Source: Bacteroidales bacterium (lineage in GTDB: Bacteria > Bacteroidota > Bacteroidia > Bacteroidales > UBA932). Taken from it: a stretch of DNA of 32,585 nucleotides. The translations under genes and the position numbers were made by a program. The notes beneath the pieces were generated by a model. It was not told the DNA's origin and did not search any database. It was given only the letters and a program-made list of their open reading frames with translations. The stretch is from assembly GCA_017477465.1 (NCBI GenBank), contig JAFUVU010000058.1, forward strand, positions 1-32,585. Direction: 5' to 3'. Below are positions 2,210-12,817 of the stretch, one piece after another (positions within the stretch are counted from its first letter, which is position 1; each line of letters opens with the position of its first letter).

Positions 2210-2782
2210 CTAAAAGCTGCAGACAGTATAGACGTAGGATGCGTCGGGGCCGATGCAGGTGTCGAAAACGGCCCTGCCGGCCTCATCTGTTTCCAGCAGC
2301 CCGGGAAGATTGTCAGAAAGCCCTTCGCCGCTGAGTTTGAGGAAGGCCTCCTTCCGCGTCCAGAGCCCGTAAAAAGCCAGCTGCGGACTGGGAGCCTGCA
2401 GGATTGCATCAACCTCGGCAGGGCTGCAGCAGTATCGGCACAGATCCATGTCCAGAGGGCTTTCCACTGTCTCGATGTCGCAGCCTACGGGACGGTCGCT
2501 TACAACGCAGAGCACGGCGGCGCTGCAGTGGCTCAGATTGAAGTGTATGTGCGGATAATCCTTCAGAAAAGGCTTCCCGTGAGGGCCGAAGGAGAACTCC
2601 GGCGCCTGAGTGATACCGTATTCTTTCTCAAGAGCTTCCAGCAGCAGAAGATAAGCCGCAAGGGACAGCTTCCTGTCATGCTCCTTTACAAGCTGCATGG
2701 CATGGCGGCGGCGCTGGGCGCTTACCCTGGCAAGCGCCTCGTCAATGTCCAAATCTGCCGGATGCGTATTTATGTAGAGCAT
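2210..2782 (-). CDS. Sfp-type 4'-phosphopantetheinyl transferase
   Basis: The 190-residue enzyme is predicted to move phosphopantetheine from coenzyme A to the carrier-domain serine of the divergent NRPS. Family motifs are all present: FGPHGKPFL (66-73), FNLSHC (81-86), the metal-binding GCDIE (100-104, Asp102 and Glu104), and WTRKEAFLKLSGEG (141-154, with Lys144, Glu145 and Lys149). It is somewhat shorter than Sfp itself. Its start is 56 nt from the NRPS start on the opposite strand, so the two genes share a short divergent promoter region; the pairing of an NRPS with a dedicated PPTase makes a functional link likely. hflX follows 24 nt downstream on the same strand. It could also serve the fatty-acid ACP if the genome has no AcpS. 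Confidence 0.9.
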   Translation of the reverse strand: MLYINTHPADLDIDEALARVSAQRRRHAMQLVKEHDRKLSLAAYLLLLEALEKEYGITQAPEFSFGPHGKPFLKDYPHIHFNLSHCSAAVLCVVSDRPVGCDIETVESPLDMDLCRYCCSPAEVDAILQAPSPQLAFYGLWTRKEAFLKLSGEGLSDNLPGLLETDEAGRAVFDTCIGPDASYVYTVCSF

Positions 2783-2783
2783 A

Positions 2784-2814
2784 TTGCAAATATAAGATAA
2801 TTTTGATACTTTTG
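2784..2814 (+). promoter_or_regulatory. Predicted promoter of the NRPS gene
   Basis: A -33 TTG (2784-2786), a 20-nt spacer and TACTTTTG (2807-2814, matching TAnnTTTG) form a good Bacteroidetes vegetative promoter. Transcription should start near 2819, giving a leader of about 20 nt before the ATG at 2839. The -33 element overlaps the predicted minus-strand promoter of the PPTase gene, so the two promoters may compete. Confidence 0.65.
2787..2794 (-). promoter_or_regulatory. Predicted -7 promoter element of the PPTase gene
   Basis: On the minus strand TATATTTG matches TAnnTTTG and ends 4 nt before the ATG at 2782. This predicts a leaderless or nearly leaderless mRNA. No good -33 box is visible at the usual distance. 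Confidence 0.5.
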
Positions 2815-2838
2815 AGGTTGTTAAAATTCTAAAGAACC

Positions 2839-5800
2839 ATGCGGACTCCGCTCTCTCAAAGTCAGCTTGGCGTGTACTACGCCTGCGTCACCAATCAGGA
2901 CAGCAGCACAAATTACCAAAACAACGTTTTGTTCGACATCCCGTCAGATGTGGGTGTAGAAAAATTGCAAACGGCTGTATATGAGGCGCTTTGCGCGCAC
3001 ACGTATCTGGCTTCAAGAATAGTGACGGACGATGAAGGCATCCCCTGCGCGGAAAGCGGAGCCTTCCCATCGGCGGAAGAAGCGGTGCCGGTGATAAAGA
3101 TAAACTCCATAGACGAGGTGAAGCCCGGCTTCGGCAAAACTATGGACGTAAACGGCGAAAAGCTCTATCGCTGTGAGATTTACAGTACCCCCGAAGGCAA
3201 AACCTGGCTGTATGTGGATTTTCATCACGTAATCACCGACGGCTTTTCGATAGTGCTGTTCCTTCGTGAAATCGAGCGCTGCTACGGCGGCAAAAAACCC
3301 GGCGGCGAAATGCTGGACGGCGCAGCGATAGCTAAGGAAGAGGAAGCCCTGAGAGCCGACGAAGCCAAAATGACAGAAGCCCGCGACTGGTATGCAAAAA
3401 CCTTTGCCGATGCCGCCGATGCCGACTCTCTCCCGCTCAAGGAAAGCACCCTCGGCGGCAAGGAGGCCGATATTTGCTATAAAGAATACCCTCTGAGCAT
3501 CTCCAAGGAGGAGGTTCAGGCCATCATGCGCCGCTTCAATGTCAAGGAGAGCACCTTGATGCAGGCCGCCTGGGGCCTTCTTCTGGCGGCATACAGCGCC
3601 GAAGACAAAGCCTCTTACTGCACGGCCTTCTTTGGAAGAAGCGACCGCCGCACCCTTGCCACCATCACCATGATGGTGCACACCCTGCCCGTGTTTGTGC
3701 AAACGCGCGGCGATGAAACCCTGGAAGAGCTTTTCTCCACCCTGGCGGAGCAGATGGACTCCACCCAGCGCCTGCAGTATTACGCCTATCAGGATGCAGT
3801 TAAAGACCTGGGTCTCAATAACCAGGTGATGTTCGTGTATCAAGGCTCCGTCCTCAACAGCAAGCGCGGCCTGCGCCTTGGGGAAAGCGTAGTCCCTTAT
3901 CAGGATTTGCGAAAGCTTACCCCGGGTTGGAAGCTGGTGTCCGAACTCTTCGACACAGGCGAAACCTATGCCCTCAAACTGGGCTACAACAGTGCCGATT
4001 ATACGGAAGCCTTCATGGAGCAGCTTGCGGCCTCCTACAGCGCCATACTGCGCTCGATGGTATCGGCCCAAACTGTGAAGGAAGTGGAATATGCTCTGCC
4101 GCAGCAGATTGAGTGGCTGAATAAACTGAATCCAACTTTGCCTGCGGCGCCGTCCCAGACATTGGTGGAACGCTTCAAACAGCACGTTGCGGAGCGGCCC
4201 GACGATATCTTTGTGGTGGCAGGTGACAAGCGCCTTACTTTCGCACAGGTTGACAAGCTAACCGACAGCATCGACCCTTCCTATACAGTGCGCTGCGGGG
4301 ACAGGGTGGTAGGCTTCTCAGTCCCGCGCGACGAAACCATGGTCCTTGCGCCTATCGCAATCGCAAAGGCAGGTCTCACACAGCTGCCGCTGGATGCGAG
4401 CTATCCGGAGGACAGGCTGGAGTTCATGAAGCAGGATGCATCGGCATATACGGGCTCGGAGGCGCTGGTGCTGCTTTATACCAGCGGCACTACGGGAACG
4501 CCTAAGGGTGTGATACTTACGGAGGAGAACTTCCGCACTTTCGTGAACTTCCATGTCGGCAATATCGGCCTTAAAGCAGGTTCGCGATATGCTTCTTATG
4601 CCGGATATGGCTTTGACGCCTATCAGCACGACCTATGGGCCTGCGTATGGGCCGGAGCAACCATTTACATTATTCCCGACGACATTCGCTTCAACCTGGA
4701 GGATATTCAGTCGTACATCAAGCGCGAAGGCATCACCCATTGCTTCATGACCACCCAGATGGCCACGCAGCTGGTGCTCAATTATCCCGATATCCAGGGC
4801 CTGGAGTGGCTTGGAACGGGCGGCGAGAAGATGATGAGCCTGGATCCGCCTTCCTACAGGCTTCTCAACGCATACGGCCCCACGGAGACGACGGTGTACG
4901 TGTGCAGTCATTATGTGGATAAGAACGAGCCGAATATCCCCATCGGCAAGCCCAACGATACGTCCGAGCTGTTCATTGTCAATCGTTTCGGGAAGCAGGT
5001 GCCTTGGGGCTGCGCAGGCGAGCTTATAGTTGCCGGACCGCAGGTGGGCCTCGGCTATCTGAACCAGCCGGAGAAGACCGCAGCGGCGTTTGTTCAGTGG
5101 AACGGCAAGCGCGTGTACCGCACAGGCGACATAGTCCGTTACCGCGAGAACGGTGACATAGAATTCGTAGGCCGAAAAGACGGCCAGGTGAAGATCCGCG
5201 GCTTCCGCATCGAGCTCAAGGAAGTTGAGGCGGTAATCCGCCAGTTCCCCGGAATCAAGGATGCCACCGTGCAGGCCTTCGATTATCCCACCGGCGGCAA
5301 GTTCATAGCCGCATATATCGTGGCCGATGAAAAGATAGACGTCAAGGCCCTGAATTCCTTCATCATGGATCAGAAGCCGCCGTACATGGTGCCTGCTGCC
5401 ACTATGCAGATAGACGCCATCCCGCTTAATCAGAACCAGAAGGTGAACAGGCGGGCCTTGCCGGAGCCGGTGATAGGCGGCGGAGTTGATGCCGCGGAAG
5501 AATCGGCCGCTCCTTTGAATGTGCTGGAGCAGCAGCTTAAGGAGATGGTGTCGGCCATTGTGAATACGGACGCCTTCGGCATTACCACAGACTTGAGGAT
5601 GGCCGGGCTTACATCAATCCTTGCCATCAAGCTGGCGACGCAGATTTTCAAGCGCTACGGCGTGCAGCTGGATTCCAAGCTCCTTAGCAGCGGCGGCAAT
5701 ATTCAAAGCATTGAGAACGAGATTCTTAAGTCTATGCTGGAAGGCGGCGTAAAGGCCCCTGAAAGCGCCGATGTGAAGGAGGAGGAACCGTCGGCCGTGC

Positions 5801-8800
5801 CGCTGTCCTACTCTCAGACCGGCGTATATTTCGACTGCATGAAGAATCCGGCCTCGACGCTGTACAATACCGCTCTCTGCCTCAAGTTCCCTGAAGGGAC
5901 AGACCCGCAAGCCCTTAAGGAGGCGGTGATAAAAGCGGTGAACAATCACCCGGCCCTGTTTGTGCATTTTGTTACTGACGACAGGGGCGTAATGCAAGTG
6001 ATGGGCGACCGCGAAACGCCCGTAGAGGTGCCTCAGAGCAGCATGAAGGAGGCCGATATCGAAGAATTCCGCACGGGATTCCTAAGACCCTTCAATCTGG
6101 GCAAAGACCGTCTTTTCCGCTTTGAAATAGTGGAGACGGAGGCGGCCCTTTACCTGTATTGCGACATCCACCACCTGGTGTGCGACGGCTATTCCTACGA
6201 CCTTCTTATCCACGAGATCTGCGACCTGATGGACAATAAGGAGATTGAGCCGGAACTGTGCTCCTACGCCCGTTTTGTCACCGAGCAGAAGGCCGCCGAA
6301 AACAGCGAAGCCTTTGCCAAGGCGGAGGCCTTCTTCAAGGAGCGTTTCTCCGATGTGGAAGGCTCCACGGAAATAGTCCCCGACCTGCCGAATCCCTTGC
6401 CCCAGGGCGAATGCGGCCGCGTTTTCGTCCCGCTTGACTGGGACAAGGTGGCCGGCTTTGCCAAGGCGCAGCAGGTCAATCCGTCGGCAGTTATGCTCAG
6501 CGCTGTCTTCTATGTGCTTGCCCGCTTCAGCGGAAACGATCAGGTGAACATAGTCACCATCTCCAACGGACGCAGCAAATTGCAGGTCTCCAGCACCATG
6601 GGCATGTTCGTGAATACGCTGGCCCTTGATGCCAAGATCGGCAAGCAGAGCGTGCGCGAGTTTATCCGCGAAAGTGCCGACAGCTTTGAGAAAACGCTTG
6701 AGAATGAGGAATATCCCTTCGCCCGCATAGCCGAAGACTATGGCCTAAAGGCCGATATTATGTTCGCCTACCAGGTGGGAGTTCTCTCCGACTACAAGAT
6801 AGGCGGCAAGCCAGTAATTGCCGATTCCACCATGGAGTCGAAGGTCCCGAAATTCAAGATAGCCTTCTACATCATGGAGGTGCAGGGCAAGCCCGGCGTG
6901 GCCCTGGAATTCGACAACGGCAGCTACAGCGAAGCACTGGCGCAGAGCCTGGCACAGAGCGTCTGCAACGCAGTCTATGCCTTCTCCGCCAATGCCGATG
7001 CAGCCCTTCGCAGCGTATCCCTTATGGACGAAGCCGGCACTGCCGTGATGGATGCGTTCAACAATACGGAAGCGGACTACGACGCCAGTCAGGACATCGT
7101 CTCGCTCTTCCGCAAGCAGGCGGCGCAAACGCCTGACAATCTGGCCGTTGTCTATCACGACGTCCGCCTCACCTACAAGGAGGTCGATGAGCGCACCGAT
7201 GCAATCGCGGCAATTGTGCAAAGCTATGTAGAGGGCGGAAAGGAGAACGTGTTTTCCATCCTTATCGGCCGCAGCGAATGGATGGTGCTGGCCTCTCTGG
7301 GCGTGCTCAAGGCAGGCTGCGCATATCAGCCGCTTGACCCTTCGTACCCTCCGGAGCGCCTGAATTACATGATGCAGGACGCCGGCGCCAAGCTGCTTAT
7401 TGCCGATGAGGAGCTTCTCTCAAAGGTGGAGTATGGAGGACCGGTGCTTCTCACAGGGAAGATGGGAGAGTCTTCGGCTAAGCTCAAAGAAACCAACGTG
7501 CGCCCCGAAGACCTGTTTATCCTGCTTTATACTTCCGGATCGACAGGAAAGCCTAAGGGATGCCAGCTGGAGCATCGTAATCTGGTGGCTTTCTGCAGCT
7601 GGTACCGCAAGTACTACGGCCTCAAGCCCGGCGACAAGGTGGCCGCTTATGCCTCCTATGGCTTCGACGCCTGCATGATGGACATGTATCCCGCCCTCAC
7701 TACCGGTGCGGCAGTCTATATCGTCGGCGATGATATCCGTCTCAATCTGCCGGATCTTAACGATTATTTCAATAAGGAAGGCGTCACCCATTCGTTTATG
7801 ACGACGCAGGTGGGCTGCCAGTTTGCCATTAACTGCGACAATCACTCCCTGCGCCACCTGAGCGTCGGCGGTGAGAAGATACTGCCGCTCACTCCTCCGT
7901 CGACCTATCAGATGCATAACGGCTACGGGCCCACGGAATGCACCATTTTCACCACTGTCTATCCGATGACGGATTTCCAGCAGAACGCTCCTATCGGCAA
8001 ACCACTAGACAATCTTAAGCTCTTCGTGGTGGACAAGGATATGAACAGGCTGCCTCTGGGCGCTGTGGGCGAGCTTCTGGTAAGCGGCCCGCAAGTGAGC
8101 AGGGGCTATCTGAACCTCCCGGAAAAGACCGCCGAGACCTATATCCAATGGAACGGCCAAAGATGCTATCGCACAGGCGACGTAGTAAGATATCTTGCCG
8201 ATGGCAATATCCAGTTCGCAGGCCGCAGCGACGGTCAGGTGAAGATTCGCGGCTTCCGCATAGAGCTGAAGGAAGTTGAGGCTGTAATAAGGGAATATCC
8301 CGGCATCAAAGACGCTACCGTTCAGGCGTTTGACTATCCTAACGGCGGCAAGTTCATCGCTGCTTATATCGTCAGCGGCGAAAAGGTTGATATCCAGGCG
8401 TTGAACAGCTTCATCAAGGAGCGCAAGCCGTCCTACATGGTACCGGCCGCCACTATGCAGCTGGATTCCATCCCGCTAAACCAGAACCAGAAGGTTAACC
8501 GCAAAGCCCTGCCTGCGCCTCAGATTCAGGCCGAAAACCGCGATTATGTGGCTCCTACAAGCGAGCTGGAGAAACTCTACTGCGAAATTTTCGCCGGCGT
8601 GCTTTCCATGGACAAGGTTGGCGCTACGGACAATTTCTTCGAGCTTGGAGGTACGTCGCTGATGGTGACAAGGCTTGTCATCGAAAGCGACAAGGCCGGT
8701 CATCACATTGCCTACGGCGATGTCTTCGACCATCCTACTCCGCGCCTGCTTGCCATGTTTGCGGGCGAATCGGCCCCCCAGCAAAAGACCGATTCGGATG

Positions 8801-9978
8801 TCGAGGACTTTGACTATTCGGGCATCAACGCTCTGCTGCAGCTGAATAACGTTCAGAGCTATCTGAAGGGCGAGAAGCAGGAGCTGGGCGATGTGTTCCT
8901 CACAGGCGCTACGGGCTATCTTGGCATCCATGTGCTCAGGGAACTGATTGACTCAGACGCGCCTACCATCACTTGCCTCGTCAGAGGAAAAGACCAGTCG
9001 CAGGCCGAACATAGGCTAAAGAACCTGCTGTTCTACTACTTCGAGAGCTCCTTCTCCGATCTGTTCGGCAGCAGAATCTTCGTGGTGAACGGCAATGTGA
9101 CCGCCAAACTGGAGCCCGGCCGTCACATCGACACTGTCATCAACTGCGCTGCAAATGTGAAGCACTTCTCCAAAGGAACTGACATTGAGGATGTTAACAT
9201 TGGCGGTGCTCGCCGATGCATGGAGTATTGCCTAAGCAGTAGGGCCCGTCTGGTACATGTCTCGACGACCTCTGTCGGCGAGGTGTGGGTTGACCGCGGC
9301 GACGGCAAGCAGGTGCCAAGGCTTGACGAGCGTTCCCTCTGGTTCGGCCAGTTCCTTGACAACCGCTATATCCACTCCAAGTTCCTCGCCGAGCGTCTGA
9401 TCCTGGAGGCCGTTGCCCATCATGGGCTCAACGCCAAAATCATGCGTGTGGGCAATCTTGCGCCGCGTTCTTCCGACGGCGAGTTCCAGGTCAACTTCAA
9501 GTCCAACTCCTACATGGGACGTCTGAAAGTGTTCCATACGCTTGGCTGCTGCCCCTTCGACAGCTATGACGAACTCACGGAAATGTCCCCTATCGACGAG
9601 ACGGCCCGCGCTGTTGTGCTCCTGGCTTCCACGCCTAAGGAATGCACCGTTTTCCAGCCTTTCAACAACCATTCGCAGCTTCTGGGCGACGTGCTCACGC
9701 TGATGGAAAAAATCGGCGGAAAAATGCGTTTCGTGGAGGCCGACGAGTTCGCTCAGGCCATCGCCATTGCCAGCCAGGATCCCGAAAAGGCCAAGCTCCT
9801 GTCGGCCCTGGTGGCTTATCAGGACATGGCCCACGGGCAGAAGGCGCTGAACATTGAAAGGGACAACCGCTATACCTGCTCCATCCTGCACCACCTGGGC
9901 TTCTTCTGGAGCGACACTTCCAGCGAGTACATAGTCCAGATGCTCCGCCAAATCGCCGCCTTCGGCTTCTTTGAATAG
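2839..9978 (+). CDS. Two-module non-ribosomal peptide synthetase, C-A-T-C-A-T-R, with terminal reductase
   Basis: The 2379-residue cytoplasmic enzyme should build a two-residue chain and release it as an aldehyde (or alcohol). Domains: C1 (1-430, HHVITDG 129-135); A1 (445-890, LLYTSGTTGTPKG 545-557, YRTGD, invariant Lys868); T1 (900-965, Ser926 in GLTSIL); C2 (988-1415, HHLVCDG 1111-1117); A2 (1425-1893, LLYTSGSTGKPKG 1562-1574, Lys1885); T2 (1905-1975, Ser1940 in ELGGTSL); thioester reductase (2015-2379, GATGYLG 2023-2029, Tyr2177 and Lys2181 as YxxxK). All catalytic motifs look intact. Pocket codes read by hand against GrsA are DAHFGGAVYK (A1) and DAMFSGGIFK (A2); neither matches a code I know, though Asp235 predicts alpha-amino acids. 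A C domain at the very N-terminus suggests N-acylation or an upstream partner in trans. A1 is about 36 residues shorter than A2 between motifs A2 and A3, and T1 lacks the LGG signature. There is no epimerase or thioesterase. Confidence 0.95.
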   Translation: MRTPLSQSQLGVYYACVTNQDSSTNYQNNVLFDIPSDVGVEKLQTAVYEALCAHTYLASRIVTDDEGIPCAESGAFPSAEEAVPVIKINSIDEVKPGFGKTMDVNGEKLYRCEIYSTPEGKTWLYVDFHHVITDGFSIVLFLREIERCYGGKKPGGEMLDGAAIAKEEEALRADEAKMTEARDWYAKTFADAADADSLPLKESTLGGKEADICYKEYPLSISKEEVQAIMRRFNVKESTLMQAAWGLLLAAYSAEDKASYCTAFFGRSDRRTLATITMMVHTLPVFVQTRGDETLEELFSTLAEQMDSTQRLQYYAYQDAVKDLGLNNQVMFVYQGSVLNSKRGLRLGESVVPYQDLRKLTPGWKLVSELFDTGETYALKLGYNSADYTEAFMEQLAASYSAILRSMVSAQTVKEVEYALPQQIEWLNKLNPTLPAAPSQTLVERFKQHVAERPDDIFVVAGDKRLTFAQVDKLTDSIDPSYTVRCGDRVVGFSVPRDETMVLAPIAIAKAGLTQLPLDASYPEDRLEFMKQDASAYTGSEALVLLYTSGTTGTPKGVILTEENFRTFVNFHVGNIGLKAGSRYASYAGYGFDAYQHDLWACVWAGATIYIIPDDIRFNLEDIQSYIKREGITHCFMTTQMATQLVLNYPDIQGLEWLGTGGEKMMSLDPPSYRLLNAYGPTETTVYVCSHYVDKNEPNIPIGKPNDTSELFIVNRFGKQVPWGCAGELIVAGPQVGLGYLNQPEKTAAAFVQWNGKRVYRTGDIVRYRENGDIEFVGRKDGQVKIRGFRIELKEVEAVIRQFPGIKDATVQAFDYPTGGKFIAAYIVADEKIDVKALNSFIMDQKPPYMVPAATMQIDAIPLNQNQKVNRRALPEPVIGGGVDAAEESAAPLNVLEQQLKEMVSAIVNTDAFGITTDLRMAGLTSILAIKLATQIFKRYGVQLDSKLLSSGGNIQSIENEILKSMLEGGVKAPESADVKEEEPSAVPLSYSQTGVYFDCMKNPASTLYNTALCLKFPEGTDPQALKEAVIKAVNNHPALFVHFVTDDRGVMQVMGDRETPVEVPQSSMKEADIEEFRTGFLRPFNLGKDRLFRFEIVETEAALYLYCDIHHLVCDGYSYDLLIHEICDLMDNKEIEPELCSYARFVTEQKAAENSEAFAKAEAFFKERFSDVEGSTEIVPDLPNPLPQGECGRVFVPLDWDKVAGFAKAQQVNPSAVMLSAVFYVLARFSGNDQVNIVTISNGRSKLQVSSTMGMFVNTLALDAKIGKQSVREFIRESADSFEKTLENEEYPFARIAEDYGLKADIMFAYQVGVLSDYKIGGKPVIADSTMESKVPKFKIAFYIMEVQGKPGVALEFDNGSYSEALAQSLAQSVCNAVYAFSANADAALRSVSLMDEAGTAVMDAFNNTEADYDASQDIVSLFRKQAAQTPDNLAVVYHDVRLTYKEVDERTDAIAAIVQSYVEGGKENVFSILIGRSEWMVLASLGVLKAGCAYQPLDPSYPPERLNYMMQDAGAKLLIADEELLSKVEYGGPVLLTGKMGESSAKLKETNVRPEDLFILLYTSGSTGKPKGCQLEHRNLVAFCSWYRKYYGLKPGDKVAAYASYGFDACMMDMYPALTTGAAVYIVGDDIRLNLPDLNDYFNKEGVTHSFMTTQVGCQFAINCDNHSLRHLSVGGEKILPLTPPSTYQMHNGYGPTECTIFTTVYPMTDFQQNAPIGKPLDNLKLFVVDKDMNRLPLGAVGELLVSGPQVSRGYLNLPEKTAETYIQWNGQRCYRTGDVVRYLADGNIQFAGRSDGQVKIRGFRIELKEVEAVIREYPGIKDATVQAFDYPNGGKFIAAYIVSGEKVDIQALNSFIKERKPSYMVPAATMQLDSIPLNQNQKVNRKALPAPQIQAENRDYVAPTSELEKLYCEIFAGVLSMDKVGATDNFFELGGTSLMVTRLVIESDKAGHHIAYGDVFDHPTPRLLAMFAGESAPQQKTDSDVEDFDYSGINALLQLNNVQSYLKGEKQELGDVFLTGATGYLGIHVLRELIDSDAPTITCLVRGKDQSQAEHRLKNLLFYYFESSFSDLFGSRIFVVNGNVTAKLEPGRHIDTVINCAANVKHFSKGTDIEDVNIGGARRCMEYCLSSRARLVHVSTTSVGEVWVDRGDGKQVPRLDERSLWFGQFLDNRYIHSKFLAERLILEAVAHHGLNAKIMRVGNLAPRSSDGEFQVNFKSNSYMGRLKVFHTLGCCPFDSYDELTEMSPIDETARAVVLLASTPKECTVFQPFNNHSQLLGDVLTLMEKIGGKMRFVEADEFAQAIAIASQDPEKAKLLSALVAYQDMAHGQKALNIERDNRYTCSILHHLGFFWSDTSSEYIVQMLRQIAAFGFFE

Positions 9979-9990
9979 TTTTTTGGGCCG

Positions 9991-12096
9991 ATGGATTCTT
10001 CGAAAAGGAATAGGATTGCCCGCGTGGGCTTCGTGGTGCTTGCCGCTGTTCTTATAGAGGCAATCTCCATCACGCAGTATCAGCGCGTGCGTTCCATAAT
10101 CGAAGAGGATATGGCCGTGCAGTCCAAGGTTGTTCTTAGCGCGATGGTCTCCGATGTCGATCACATGTTGGAGACGACGGAGCACACGATGAACGAGAAT
10201 CTGTGGATAGTGCGGCGGTACCTGGACAACCCCGATTCGGCCTTTGCAGCCTTGACTTATCTGATAGACGACAATCCCCAGGTGGCGGCCGGCTTCCTGG
10301 CTTATGTCCCGGATTATTTCCCTTCAAAGGGCAGGCTTTTCGAGCCATGCGCCCTTCGTCGGGACGGGGCTATCGTTCATTCTCAGCTTGGCGGACCGGA
10401 GCACGATTATACCCTGAGCGAGTTCTATCAGAAGCCGGCTTCGGAGCTTAAGCCTTCCTGGTCGAATCCATATCCGGACGCGCCGGAGTACTATGCCAAC
10501 ACTATCACTTATTCTTATCCCATTCTGGACGCAAAAGGCCGATTGGCGGCTGTCTGCGGCCTGGATATGAATCTTTCCTGGCTTGGCGACACGCTTAATT
10601 CCCACCAGCCTTATCCCTCTTCTTTCGGCATGCTGCTGACCCAGGACGGCCTTTTGGTTGCCGGCCCGCCGGAAAGCAGAACCGCTCCCGACAAGGTGGA
10701 AAAGATGCTGGAGATTCTTCGCATCGGCGCTACCAGGACGGAAGATAAAAAGCTTGCCATACAGACCTCCAACATGCTTCGTGCGCCTTATTGGCAGGTG
10801 GTTGAGGTGTACAGTACCGATGAGGCCTTTTCGCGCATTCTGAAGATGCGCAGGCAGTCCTGGCTGCTTGTTCTGATAGCGCTGGGCATCCTCTTTTTCA
10901 TGATTGAGCGCTATACCCGCGGCGAGAAGAAGCTTAGCGAAGCATCGGCCGAAAAGGCGCGCCTGAGCGGGGAATTGGAGGTTGCGCGCAATATCCAGGA
11001 AGAGATGCTGCCGAAGGTTTTCCCCGACAATATCTTCGGAACGGTGAAGCCTGCGCTTGAAGTAGGCGGCGACCTCTTCGACTTTTACCGCAGGGACGGG
11101 AAGCTCTTTTTCTGTATCGGCGATGTAAGCGGAAAGGGTGTGCCGGCCGCCATGCTGATGTCCGTGATTCATTCGCTTTTCCGCATCGTTTCGCGCTCGG
11201 AGGACCGTCCGTCCTTCATTTTGAAGACTCTGAATGAACAGATTTGCGAGCGAAACAGCGCCAATTTGTTTGTCACCTTCTTTGTCGGCTGTATCGACCT
11301 GTATACCTCTAAATTCTACTTTGCCAACGCCGGGCATGACAAGCCTTTCGTTCTGTCTGAATCGGCCGAATTATTGCCTGTAAAGGCTAATCTGCCGCTA
11401 GGCGTTTTCCCTGATACTGTCTTCGAGGAGCAGAGCATTATGCTCACCCCCGGACAGAGCCTTTTCCTTTATACTGACGGACTTACGGAGGCCAAGAATA
11501 AGGCGCGCGTCAATTTCGGCCGCACCCGCCTCAAGGAGTGCATCGACAAAGCTATTGCCGATTCGGCCGCTGTGCCTCAGACCTTGATTAGCCGCGTGGG
11601 TGCCGCCGTGTCTGCCTATTCTCACGGGGTTACACAGAGTGACGATCTTACCATGCTCGTCATAAATTATGCACCCGGAAAGATTCTAAGCGACAAGATT
11701 ACCATCACCAATGATTTAAGCGAAGTGCGTCGCTTGAATGAGTTTGTAAAAGGCTTTTTAGAGCAGTTGGATGTGCCTGTCCGCGAGGCCTCGCACCTTC
11801 GTTTGGCGCTTGAAGAATCTGTCGTTAACTCTATCTCCTATGCCTATCCAAAGGGCCTGAAGGGAGAGATAACAGTTTATGCCGACAGTGACTTTAAAGA
11901 AGTCCGCTTCACCGTAGTAGATTCCGGCGTAGCTTTCGATCCTACGGCTGTTTTGTCGCCGGATACTACCCTTGAAGCTAACGAACGGCCCATAGGCGGT
12001 CTGGGTATCCTTTTGACCCGTAAACTTGTGGATTCTGTTTCTTATTGCCGCAAACATGGAAATAATGTGTTATCTTTGACGAAAATTTTGATATGA
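9991..12096 (+). CDS. Membrane sensor with SpoIIE/RsbU-type PP2C phosphatase and RsbW-like ATPase domain
   Basis: This 701-residue protein combines a sensor, a serine phosphatase and an anti-sigma-type kinase domain. One membrane segment near 11-27 and another near 291-305 flank a periplasmic region of about 260 residues with Cache-like features (YFPSKGRLFEPC, SYPILDAKGRLAAVCGLDMN). A linker helix leads to the PP2C/SpoIIE domain, whose metal-binding sites are visible: GGDLFD (359-364), GDVSGKG (377-383) and LYTDGLTEA (494-501 area). The C-terminal HATPase_c domain has an N box (LEESVVNS, Asn613), Asp644 in VVDSG and a G box GGLGILL (669-675). The gene starts 12 nt after the NRPS stop and overlaps the STAS gene by 4 nt, so a joint transcript is likely. 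The substrate is presumably the adjacent STAS protein. The final sigma factor or other effector is not in the window. Confidence 0.88.
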   Translation: MDSSKRNRIARVGFVVLAAVLIEAISITQYQRVRSIIEEDMAVQSKVVLSAMVSDVDHMLETTEHTMNENLWIVRRYLDNPDSAFAALTYLIDDNPQVAAGFLAYVPDYFPSKGRLFEPCALRRDGAIVHSQLGGPEHDYTLSEFYQKPASELKPSWSNPYPDAPEYYANTITYSYPILDAKGRLAAVCGLDMNLSWLGDTLNSHQPYPSSFGMLLTQDGLLVAGPPESRTAPDKVEKMLEILRIGATRTEDKKLAIQTSNMLRAPYWQVVEVYSTDEAFSRILKMRRQSWLLVLIALGILFFMIERYTRGEKKLSEASAEKARLSGELEVARNIQEEMLPKVFPDNIFGTVKPALEVGGDLFDFYRRDGKLFFCIGDVSGKGVPAAMLMSVIHSLFRIVSRSEDRPSFILKTLNEQICERNSANLFVTFFVGCIDLYTSKFYFANAGHDKPFVLSESAELLPVKANLPLGVFPDTVFEEQSIMLTPGQSLFLYTDGLTEAKNKARVNFGRTRLKECIDKAIADSAAVPQTLISRVGAAVSAYSHGVTQSDDLTMLVINYAPGKILSDKITITNDLSEVRRLNEFVKGFLEQLDVPVREASHLRLALEESVVNSISYAYPKGLKGEITVYADSDFKEVRFTVVDSGVAFDPTAVLSPDTTLEANERPIGGLGILLTRKLVDSVSYCRKHGNNVLSLTKILI

Positions 12097-12395
12097 ACAC
12101 CAAAGTACAAGTATTAGACGACAAGATTCTTGTATCTCTGTCAGGCGAATTTGACACAGCAGCAGCCGAAGAAATGGAAAAATCCCTTCAGCCGCTTCTG
12201 GATTGCGGTGCAAAGGATATTTTCATAGATTGTACAGAGCTTGACTATATCTCGTCAAGGGGACTTCGTATCCTTCTCGTTTTCCTTAAAAACGCCAAGG
12301 CAAACGGCTCCCGTCTTGTACTTCAGAACGTAAATGATGTAGTCCGTGATGTTCTTGAACTCACCGGCTTTGTAACCATTTTTGAAATAGAGTAA
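12093..12395 (+). CDS. STAS-domain anti-sigma-factor antagonist (RsbV-like)
   Basis: The 100-residue protein is a single STAS domain. The segment LDYISSRGLRILL (from residue 50) carries the serine pair Ser54/Ser55 at the site phosphorylated in RsbV and SpoIIAA. Its start overlaps the stop of the phosphatase/ATPase gene (ATGA), the usual sign of translational coupling. In known partner-switching systems the RsbW-type kinase phosphorylates the antagonist and the RsbU-type phosphatase reverses this; here both activities appear to sit in the upstream protein. What the antagonist finally controls cannot be seen here, because Bacteroidetes lack a classical SigB and no sigma factor is nearby. Confidence 0.9.
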   Translation: MNTKVQVLDDKILVSLSGEFDTAAAEEMEKSLQPLLDCGAKDIFIDCTELDYISSRGLRILLVFLKNAKANGSRLVLQNVNDVVRDVLELTGFVTIFEIE

Positions 12396-12397
12396 GG

Positions 12398-12817
12398 ATG
12401 GTCTCTTATTTTACAGAGGATATAAAATTCAATTTTAAGGAAAAGCGCCTCACTTCCCGTTGGCTAAAGTTCGTAGCAGAAAGCGAGGCCAAGCGTCTGG
12501 GCGATATTTCTGTAATATTCTGTTCCGATAATTATATTCTAGATGTCAATATAAAATATCTAAAACACGATTATTTTACAGATATAATAACCTTCGACTA
12601 TTGTGAAGACAATCTCCTTTCCGGGGATCTCTTTATAAGCATCGACTCCGTCAGGGAAAACGCCTCTTTTTACGGAACGGAATTCTCGGACGAGCTTAAC
12701 CGCGTCATAGTTCACGGCCTTCTTCATCTCATAGGTTATGACGACCATACGGAGGAAGATATTGCCATGATGCGCGCAAAAGAGAACTACTATCTCTCGC
12801 AGCGGGGGAATGTATGA
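12398..12817 (+). CDS. ybeY: Endoribonuclease YbeY, rRNA maturation factor
   Basis: The 139-residue protein matches the YbeY family, which acts in 16S rRNA 3'-end maturation and ribosome quality control. The metal-binding motif reads HGLLHLIGYDDH (106-117). The first two histidines are in place, but at the third ligand position of the usual HGxLHLxGYDH the residue is Asp116, with a His one position later. From memory, other Bacteroidetes YbeY proteins also vary here. It starts 2 nt after the STAS gene and overlaps mnmG by 4 nt. Base composition is visibly more AT-rich than in the NRPS. Confidence 0.92.
   Translation: MVSYFTEDIKFNFKEKRLTSRWLKFVAESEAKRLGDISVIFCSDNYILDVNIKYLKHDYFTDIITFDYCEDNLLSGDLFISIDSVRENASFYGTEFSDELNRVIVHGLLHLIGYDDHTEEDIAMMRAKENYYLSQRGNV

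Follow-up and report, generated by a model that had tools for sequence, protein, structure and literature searches.

A Reductase-Ended Dimodular Nonribosomal Peptide Synthetase of Bacteroidales and the SpoIIE-STAS Pair Beside It

Introduction

What does a compact peptide synthetase of a Bacteroidales bacterium make, and what decides when it is made? The question is raised by contig JAFUVU010000058.1 of GenBank assembly GCA_017477465.1, 32,585 nucleotides (nt) long and analysed here over its full length ("the window"), which carries a dimodular nonribosomal peptide synthetase (NRPS; 2839..9978, plus strand, 2379 amino acids) and, divergent from it, a Sfp-type 4'-phosphopantetheinyl transferase (PPTase; 2210..2782, minus strand). 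The initial annotation, which was confined to 2210..9978, had predicted reductive release of a dipeptide aldehyde. Outside these coordinates, and adjoining the NRPS gene, lie the genes for a membrane sensor phosphatase (9991..12096, plus strand) and a STAS-domain protein (12093..12395, plus strand). From comparisons of sequence it appears probable that the NRPS makes a reductively released dipeptide aldehyde, or a ring formed from it, and that the adjoining SpoIIE-STAS partner-switch module controls it. The linked sensor switch is a stronger result than the original observation of the NRPS, and since most of the relatives examined have such a neighbour close by, the timing of production may well be set by a signal.

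The window comprises an entire contig (C22) of a genome of 2.42 Mb in 73 contigs, the completeness of which is estimated at 82.5%.

The SpoIIE-STAS Pair

The sensor phosphatase gene begins 12 nt past the stop codon of the NRPS gene. Its product of 701 amino acids consists of a dCache sensor, a SpoIIE-type PP2C phosphatase domain (11095-11667) and an RsbW-like HATPase domain (11707-12084). The STAS gene overlaps its end by 4 nt and encodes a protein of the anti-anti-sigma type, with a conserved serine, Ser55, in the motif ISSRGLR. Both assignments were made by domain search and conserved motifs. The aspartate motifs of PP2C, the N and G boxes of the HATPase and the STAS serine are conserved in 34 SpoIIE sequences of lineage A (see below) and in 55 STAS sequences, and the window pair possesses the motifs of a partner switch of the RsbU/V/W type. 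The functional roles given here to the PP2C, HATPase and STAS motifs in such a pair are assumed. A periplasmic dCache sensor would set the PP2C phosphatase against the fused HATPase kinase; the balance between phosphatase and kinase would set the phosphorylation of Ser55 in the STAS protein, and this phosphorylation state would in turn govern production of the NRPS compound.

The sequence TAnnTTTG, which we take to be a promoter element of the Bacteroidetes type, was searched for by match to the consensus only. Three matches are present in the gap between the PPTase and NRPS genes, one on the minus strand (2787-2794) and two on the plus strand (2798-2805 and 2807-2814), and no plus-strand match was found from 4214 to 12070. 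A scan of 9700-12500 for sigma-70-type promoters yielded no site on the plus strand and two on the minus strand. Within the SpoIIE gene there are two terminator-like sites, a number below that in shuffled sequences. In view of these scans, co-transcription of the NRPS, SpoIIE and STAS genes is plausible. Across the whole window, both strands taken together, TAnnTTTG occurs 25 times, with 13.3 occurrences expected.

Linkage of SpoIIE Genes to Related Synthetases

A search for relatives in Bacteroidales genomes had been proposed in the initial annotation. When one genome of each species was scanned, 387 candidate stretches were obtained, and the best 80, chosen by likeness to the window NRPS, were kept (47-76% identity in the best segment); all bear names of the Bacteroidetes group. 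A SpoIIE gene is located near the NRPS gene in 65 of these 80 named loci, 55 times upstream and 9 times downstream on the same strand, and once upstream on the opposite strand. The gap between the two genes is < 600 nt in 45 loci and ranges from 1.4 to 5.3 kb in the other 20, and a STAS match is present in 62 of the 64 loci with SpoIIE on the same strand. Among the 15 loci without SpoIIE, 11 are cut, i.e., have a flank of < 3 kb, and five contain a STAS match. Seventeen further loci (15 relatives from the genus, the window itself and one locus of another family) comprised 10 with linkage and seven without, five of the latter being cut.

The background of SpoIIE genes differs within the order. 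Two such genes are found in the 2.4 Mb genome from which the window originates, and 40 of 61 genomes of the genus have any (1-5 each, three of them by weak matches only); certain other families in the order have as many as 28 or 29, so that the background is higher there. A close orthologue of the window SpoIIE was defined by an identity of 49% or more along most of the length, a threshold chosen after the list had been seen, and partial matches were disregarded. Such an orthologue is present in 8 of 16 NRPS-positive genomes of the genus, the window's own included, and in none of the 45 others (Fisher test, p = 4.4e-6, a value which ignores kinship). In six of the eight genomes it is adjacent to the NRPS gene. 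From 21 SpoIIE regions of the genus inspected away from NRPS genes, 15 hold a SpoIIE that is 34-36% identical to that of the window, the second copy of its own genome included; the others are 27-49% identical. This second copy, on contig C28, is likewise part of a SpoIIE-STAS pair and belongs to a group found in many genomes of the genus; it is not located beside an NRPS gene.

Several points weigh against control of the NRPS by the pair. No target gene was found beside the two genes. A plus-strand TAnnTTTG match at 12071-12078 stands just before the STAS start, and STAS may therefore have a promoter of its own. The linkage is not obligatory, since loci with at least 3 kb on both flanks exist that lack SpoIIE, four among the 80 (L052, L068, L089 and L099) and two among the 17. 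The 80 loci had been selected by likeness to the window NRPS; since they are related by descent, the 65 linked loci do not represent 65 independent events. Half of the NRPS-positive genomes of the genus (8 of 16) have no close SpoIIE orthologue, and in genomes G023 and G047 the NRPS gene and the orthologous SpoIIE gene are on separate contigs. Finally, unlinked SpoIIE genes were sampled mostly from one genus, and any exclusivity of the linked lineages could be judged mainly there.

Exchange of Sensors

Two trees, both rooted at the midpoint, were compared by inspection rather than by a formal test of congruence, one of 98 SpoIIE sequences (28 of them added from elsewhere) and one of 91 NRPS proteins, the latter based on the part from the second condensation domain to the reductase domain. 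The SpoIIE tree contains separate NRPS-linked lineages, designated A, B and C, and single cases, which are mixed and incongruent when placed on the NRPS tree. Lineage B is found mainly with NRPSs which are sister to the clade of the window (joint support 0.999) and share its deletion in the first adenylation domain; lineage A also occurs with far more distant NRPSs. The L074 locus (lineage B) and the L070 group (lineage C) are nested elsewhere on the NRPS tree. The arrangement varies as well, SpoIIE being upstream of, downstream of or divergent from the NRPS gene. Since several SpoIIE lineages pair with the NRPS but do not follow its tree, the sensors were swapped while the pairing was kept; no other observation points as strongly to a functional link as this persistence of the pairing through exchange of the partner.

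Eight stretches were fetched from other families of the order, three of which (L177, L181, L186) are cut at the NRPS gene. Three others, with NRPSs 34-45% identical to that of the window (L183, L184, L185), contain NRPS, STAS, SpoIIE and a PPTase-like gene (weak in L185), and a MATE-like gene is present in L183 and L184. In the remaining two (L187, L188; NRPS 28-29% identical) SpoIIE is absent.

Could the pair adjoin the NRPS gene by chance or through synteny? The order SpoIIE-STAS-YbeY-MnmG, which the window shares with loci L137 and L145 of the genus, would be in keeping with this, but the pairing recurs with different SpoIIE lineages, in three arrangements, in different neighbourhoods and in other families, and we regard such an explanation as very improbable. 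In L137 and L145 the NRPS gene stands beside the four genes and is divergent from SpoIIE, i.e., inverted with respect to the window, and its product is about 50% identical to the window NRPS; HflX is on the other side of the NRPS gene in L145, and L137 is cut by the contig end. In these loci, one NRPS may have replaced another at a fixed site.

Input and Output of the Proposed Switch

Small amine ligands are bound by dCache domains. The pockets were inspected for the five residues described for dCache domains of the PctA type (receptors for amino acids or autoinducer-2), R126, W128, Y144, D146 and D173 (according to a portion of PMC9540692), the respective columns being placed by motif, with no PctA sequence aligned. 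The window has S, F, Y, D and D at these positions and thus departs from the PctA type. All five residues are present in 23 of 26 sequences of lineage B, and in none of 34 of lineage A, 4 of lineage C and 34 other SpoIIE sequences. Lineage A retains the tyrosine and the last aspartate in 33 of 34 sequences and the middle aspartate in 19 of 34; arginine and tryptophan are absent. The linked sensors would probably read different ligands.

Because the pocket residues differ between sensor lineages, environmental control of the synthetase is favoured over sensing of its own product. An autoinducer-type circuit, in which the sensor would detect the NRPS product itself and control other genes, is improbable; adjacency and co-occurrence of SpoIIE and NRPS, the binding of small amines by dCache domains, and the tyrosine and last aspartate retained in lineage A could be accommodated by it, but the pockets differ by lineage while the code of the second adenylation domain hardly changes (see below), which fits different inputs leading to one output better. 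Serine phosphatases with dCache domains have been proposed as candidate receptors for autoinducer-2 (AI-2), and no link to an NRPS is drawn in the portion of PMC9540692 available.

Concerning the output, no sigma-factor gene was found among the open reading frames (ORFs) of the window that were scanned, and no genome-wide search for the target of the switch was made. Archaea are not known to have bacterial sigma factors. Since similar neighbours are reported to adjoin an NRPS gene in an archaeon (see the last section), the target of the switch need not be a sigma factor. By analogy, the unphosphorylated STAS protein could perhaps gate the synthetase or its export directly, as a signal-operated on/off switch with exchangeable sensors; we consider a bypass of this kind rather unlikely.

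The Synthetase and Its Predicted Product

The domain order C-A-T-C-A-T-R (condensation, adenylation, carrier and reductase domains), with intact motifs, a reductase end and no thioesterase, had been read initially and is borne out by the open ORF, Pfam and NCBIfam searches, motif checks and alignment. The approximate limits of the domains, all on the plus strand, are 2845..4122 for C1 (motif HHVITDG intact, role unproven), 4144..5469 for A1, 5506..5718 for T1 (GLTSI), 5788..7050 for C2 (HHLVCDG; found also by profile search), 7081..8523 for A2, 8551..8763 for T2 (LGGTS) and 8881..9975 for R, the domain for reductive release. Pfam matches comprised two Condensation, two PP-binding, AMP-binding with two AMP-binding_C, and NAD_binding_4 (R) at residues 2021-2258; a thioesterase was not found by Pfam in this ORF. 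Both carrier serines, the motifs TGATGYLG and YIHSK and the threonine stretch of the R domain are intact. Among solved structures, 6vtj matched T2-R over the whole length (306 bits), followed by the R domain of AusA (4f6l, 145 bits); 6vtj is presumably an archaeal didomain of peptidyl carrier protein and reductase (PCP-R), judging from a title in a reference list. The divergent Sfp-type PPTase, likewise confirmed, is 56 nt from the NRPS start and matches PF01648 with 53 bits and the AusB model with 73 bits.

An alignment of 91 long proteins, the window NRPS included, excludes chance as the source of the ORF; identities to the window NRPS are 45-77% in 85 relatives and 33-41% in five. Plasmid-borne NRPSs, with 25-28% identity among the 25 matches listed, were considered as references and were not used.

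Alignment to LgrA reproduced the pocket codes given in the initial annotation, DAHFGGAVYK for A1 and DAMFSGGIFK for A2. The claim that they lack a known match was supported as well, if weakly: four codes of the family did not occur in the open-licence papers searched, but codes are rarely printed. Within the 91 proteins the A2 code is exactly DAMFSGGIFK in 57 and follows the pattern DAMF[SA]G[GAC]IFK in 85, whereas A1 codes exist in 42 versions. Because of this near-constancy of A2 and the variation of A1, the aldehyde residue should be constant and its partner variable, and a series of products in rumen Bacteroidales, with one fixed aldehyde residue and a variable partner, is predicted. An A1 domain that lacks about 38 residues between its motifs A2 and A3 is shared by 47 of the 91 proteins; the window NRPS is one of them, and it has kept the core motifs of A1 despite the gap.

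A dipeptide aldehyde, or a ring formed from it, would be the likeliest product. The NRPS would join two residues and release the dipeptide as an aldehyde through reduction with NAD(P)H; the aldehyde would either persist (with an N-cap, should C1 acylate the first residue) or close to a dihydropyrazinone and a pyrazinone, as with AusA. Thus, of the interpretation given initially, the two-module reductase-ended NRPS, its neighbouring PPTase, the likeness to the AusA type and reductive release as the likeliest chemistry have stood; the rarity ascribed to it has not (see below).

The fate of the aldehyde would depend on C1. Typing through PDB relatives was weak with a single-sequence search; a profile search led to elongation-type domains and was not decisive. 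Scores for C1 were 140 bits with BacC, 127 with TycC, 36 with 7c1k and 34 with 4jn3; C2 gave 56 bits with 7c1k and 34 with 4jn3. The two latter chains are presumably starter condensation domains. Subtype motifs of condensation domains appear as figures only in the sections of Rausch et al. at hand (PMC1894796).

It is quite possible, if short of probable, that C1 is a working starter domain which N-acylates the first residue, the product then being a stable N-acyl dipeptide aldehyde of the protease-inhibitor type and no pyrazinone. Of the 74 proteins with a visible C1, 69 keep the motif HHxxxDG and five have a degenerate form of it, and in near relatives C1 is about as constrained as C2 (mean identities of 64 versus 69% in 17 near proteins and 56 versus 54% in 20). 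Moreover, no upstream NRPS partner is visible, since no condensation domain was found outside this ORF in the genome at its estimated completeness; the two of the window NRPS were the only ones detected. The ranking of BacC and TycC far above the presumed starters argues the other way, as do the identities in 34 more distant proteins (the 44-58% group), 28% for C1 versus 45% for C2, the 17 of 91 proteins in which C1 is unseen, some perhaps truncated, and the lack of an acyl-ligase gene among the neighbours scanned.

If C1 were idle, synthesis would follow the AusA route, in which a dipeptide aldehyde with a free amine forms an imine that is oxidised to the pyrazinone. This comes close to being probable. 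Relatives without C1 retain the same type of A2 code, as well as the R domain wherever the sequence extends that far, and AusA itself is given as A1-T1-C-A2-T2-R in an excerpt of PMC12153313, though its model appears to have about 450 residues ahead of A1. The conservation of C1 near the window argues for some function, however, and the window C1 aligns with the internal C domain of the AusA model and not with its N-terminal part.

Distribution and Neighbouring Genes

The view that such an NRPS is notable in a Bacteroidales chromosome could not be upheld, since the family is common in rumen Bacteroidales, as the 387 candidate stretches indicate. The names of 63 of the best 80 relatives point to the rumen or ruminants, 23 directly and 40 more by the label RUG, presumably for rumen uncultured genomes; 17 names are uninformative. 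Matches with E values up to 1e-150 were obtained in 9 of 393 genomes sampled from the order and in 16 of 61 genomes of the genus (first set), the genome of the window being included in both counts. A survey of rumen Bacteroidaceae listed 934 NRPS clusters (PMC8241843, consulted in part), and dimodular NRPSs of the pyrazinone type were noted in 13 of 981 rumen genomes in the available portion of PMC9540692. The near named relatives of the window are metagenome-assembled genomes of Bacteroidales; in L024 (UBA3289), HflX and YbeY are 90% identical to those of the window.

Four loci (L045, L048, L081, L091) have two NRPS genes near each other on one strand and may thus yield longer peptides. An outer-membrane beta-barrel protein (weak Alginate_exp match; 3465-4805 in L073) recurs near SpoIIE-STAS-NRPS in a cluster of 18 loci, and an SNF-type symporter in 16. 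A MATE cluster was found in six loci.

Significance

According to parts of PMC8210680, such aldehydes reportedly inhibit proteases of the host, and it is still debated what their pyrazinones do. The fixed A2 code and the variable A1 codes predict a product series that could be tested across rumen Bacteroidales. A pair of sensor and switch which is kept through replacement of the sensor offers a direct handle, because the ligand would show when, and why, the compound is made.

Comparison with Known Systems

The regulatory pair resembles RsbU-RsbV-RsbW, SpoIIE-SpoIIAA-SpoIIAB and SypE-SypA in having a PP2C phosphatase, a HATPase kinase and a single STAS protein with a conserved serine. It differs in that one protein unites sensor, phosphatase and kinase, that its neighbour is an NRPS, and that no sigma-factor gene was found next to it.

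Dipeptide-aldehyde NRPS clusters of gut commensals, mostly Clostridia, were reportedly described by Guo et al. in 2017, a study cited in PMC8210680 and PMC12153313; by description, these NRPSs and that of the window are alike in being small and from gut anaerobes, with two modules, a terminal reductase and no thioesterase. AusA/AusB of Staphylococcus, which make the pyrazinone aureusimine, share with the window the core A-T-C-A-T-R with terminal R, a dedicated PPTase and reductive release. The AusA model NF047350 is the best NCBIfam match of the window NRPS, with 984 bits, far below the cut-off of 2500, and the NRPS is therefore AusA-like but not AusA; for the PPTase the AusB model gives 73 bits with a cut-off of 225. 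Synthetases of the AusA type make a free-amine Val-aromatic product; to our knowledge the pocket codes of the window match no known code. A linked SpoIIE-STAS pair, as present in the window, is not mentioned in the parts of the AusAB literature used here. In the case of SypE-SypA, the authors saw no sign of an anti-anti-sigma role of SypA (PMC4517449, in part).

The closest precedent is archaeal. In the locus mru0066-mru0071 of Methanobrevibacter ruminantium M1, the gene for a two-module NRPS (mru0068 type) is located amid a MatE gene and those for two serine phosphatases and an antagonist of an anti-sigma factor, and sensing, regulation and export were proposed for this locus by the authors in 2010 (PMC2812497, as far as its text was available); a thioester reductase is named in the legend of Figure S8 and a thioesterase in the main text. 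Judged by description and not by alignment, that locus and the window share the twofold C-A-T unit and an adjacent serine phosphatase with a STAS or anti-sigma antagonist protein. The archaeal case is a single locus and has MatE, whereas a Pfam scan of ORFs of the window revealed no MatE exporter. No earlier statement of a general SpoIIE-STAS/NRPS pattern in Bacteroidetes was found in the open-licence literature searched, PMC2812497 being the sole precedent. Within that literature, a single archaeal locus was known before; new here are the general pattern in Bacteroidales, the repeated re-pairing of sensors and synthetases, and the contrast between the sensors.

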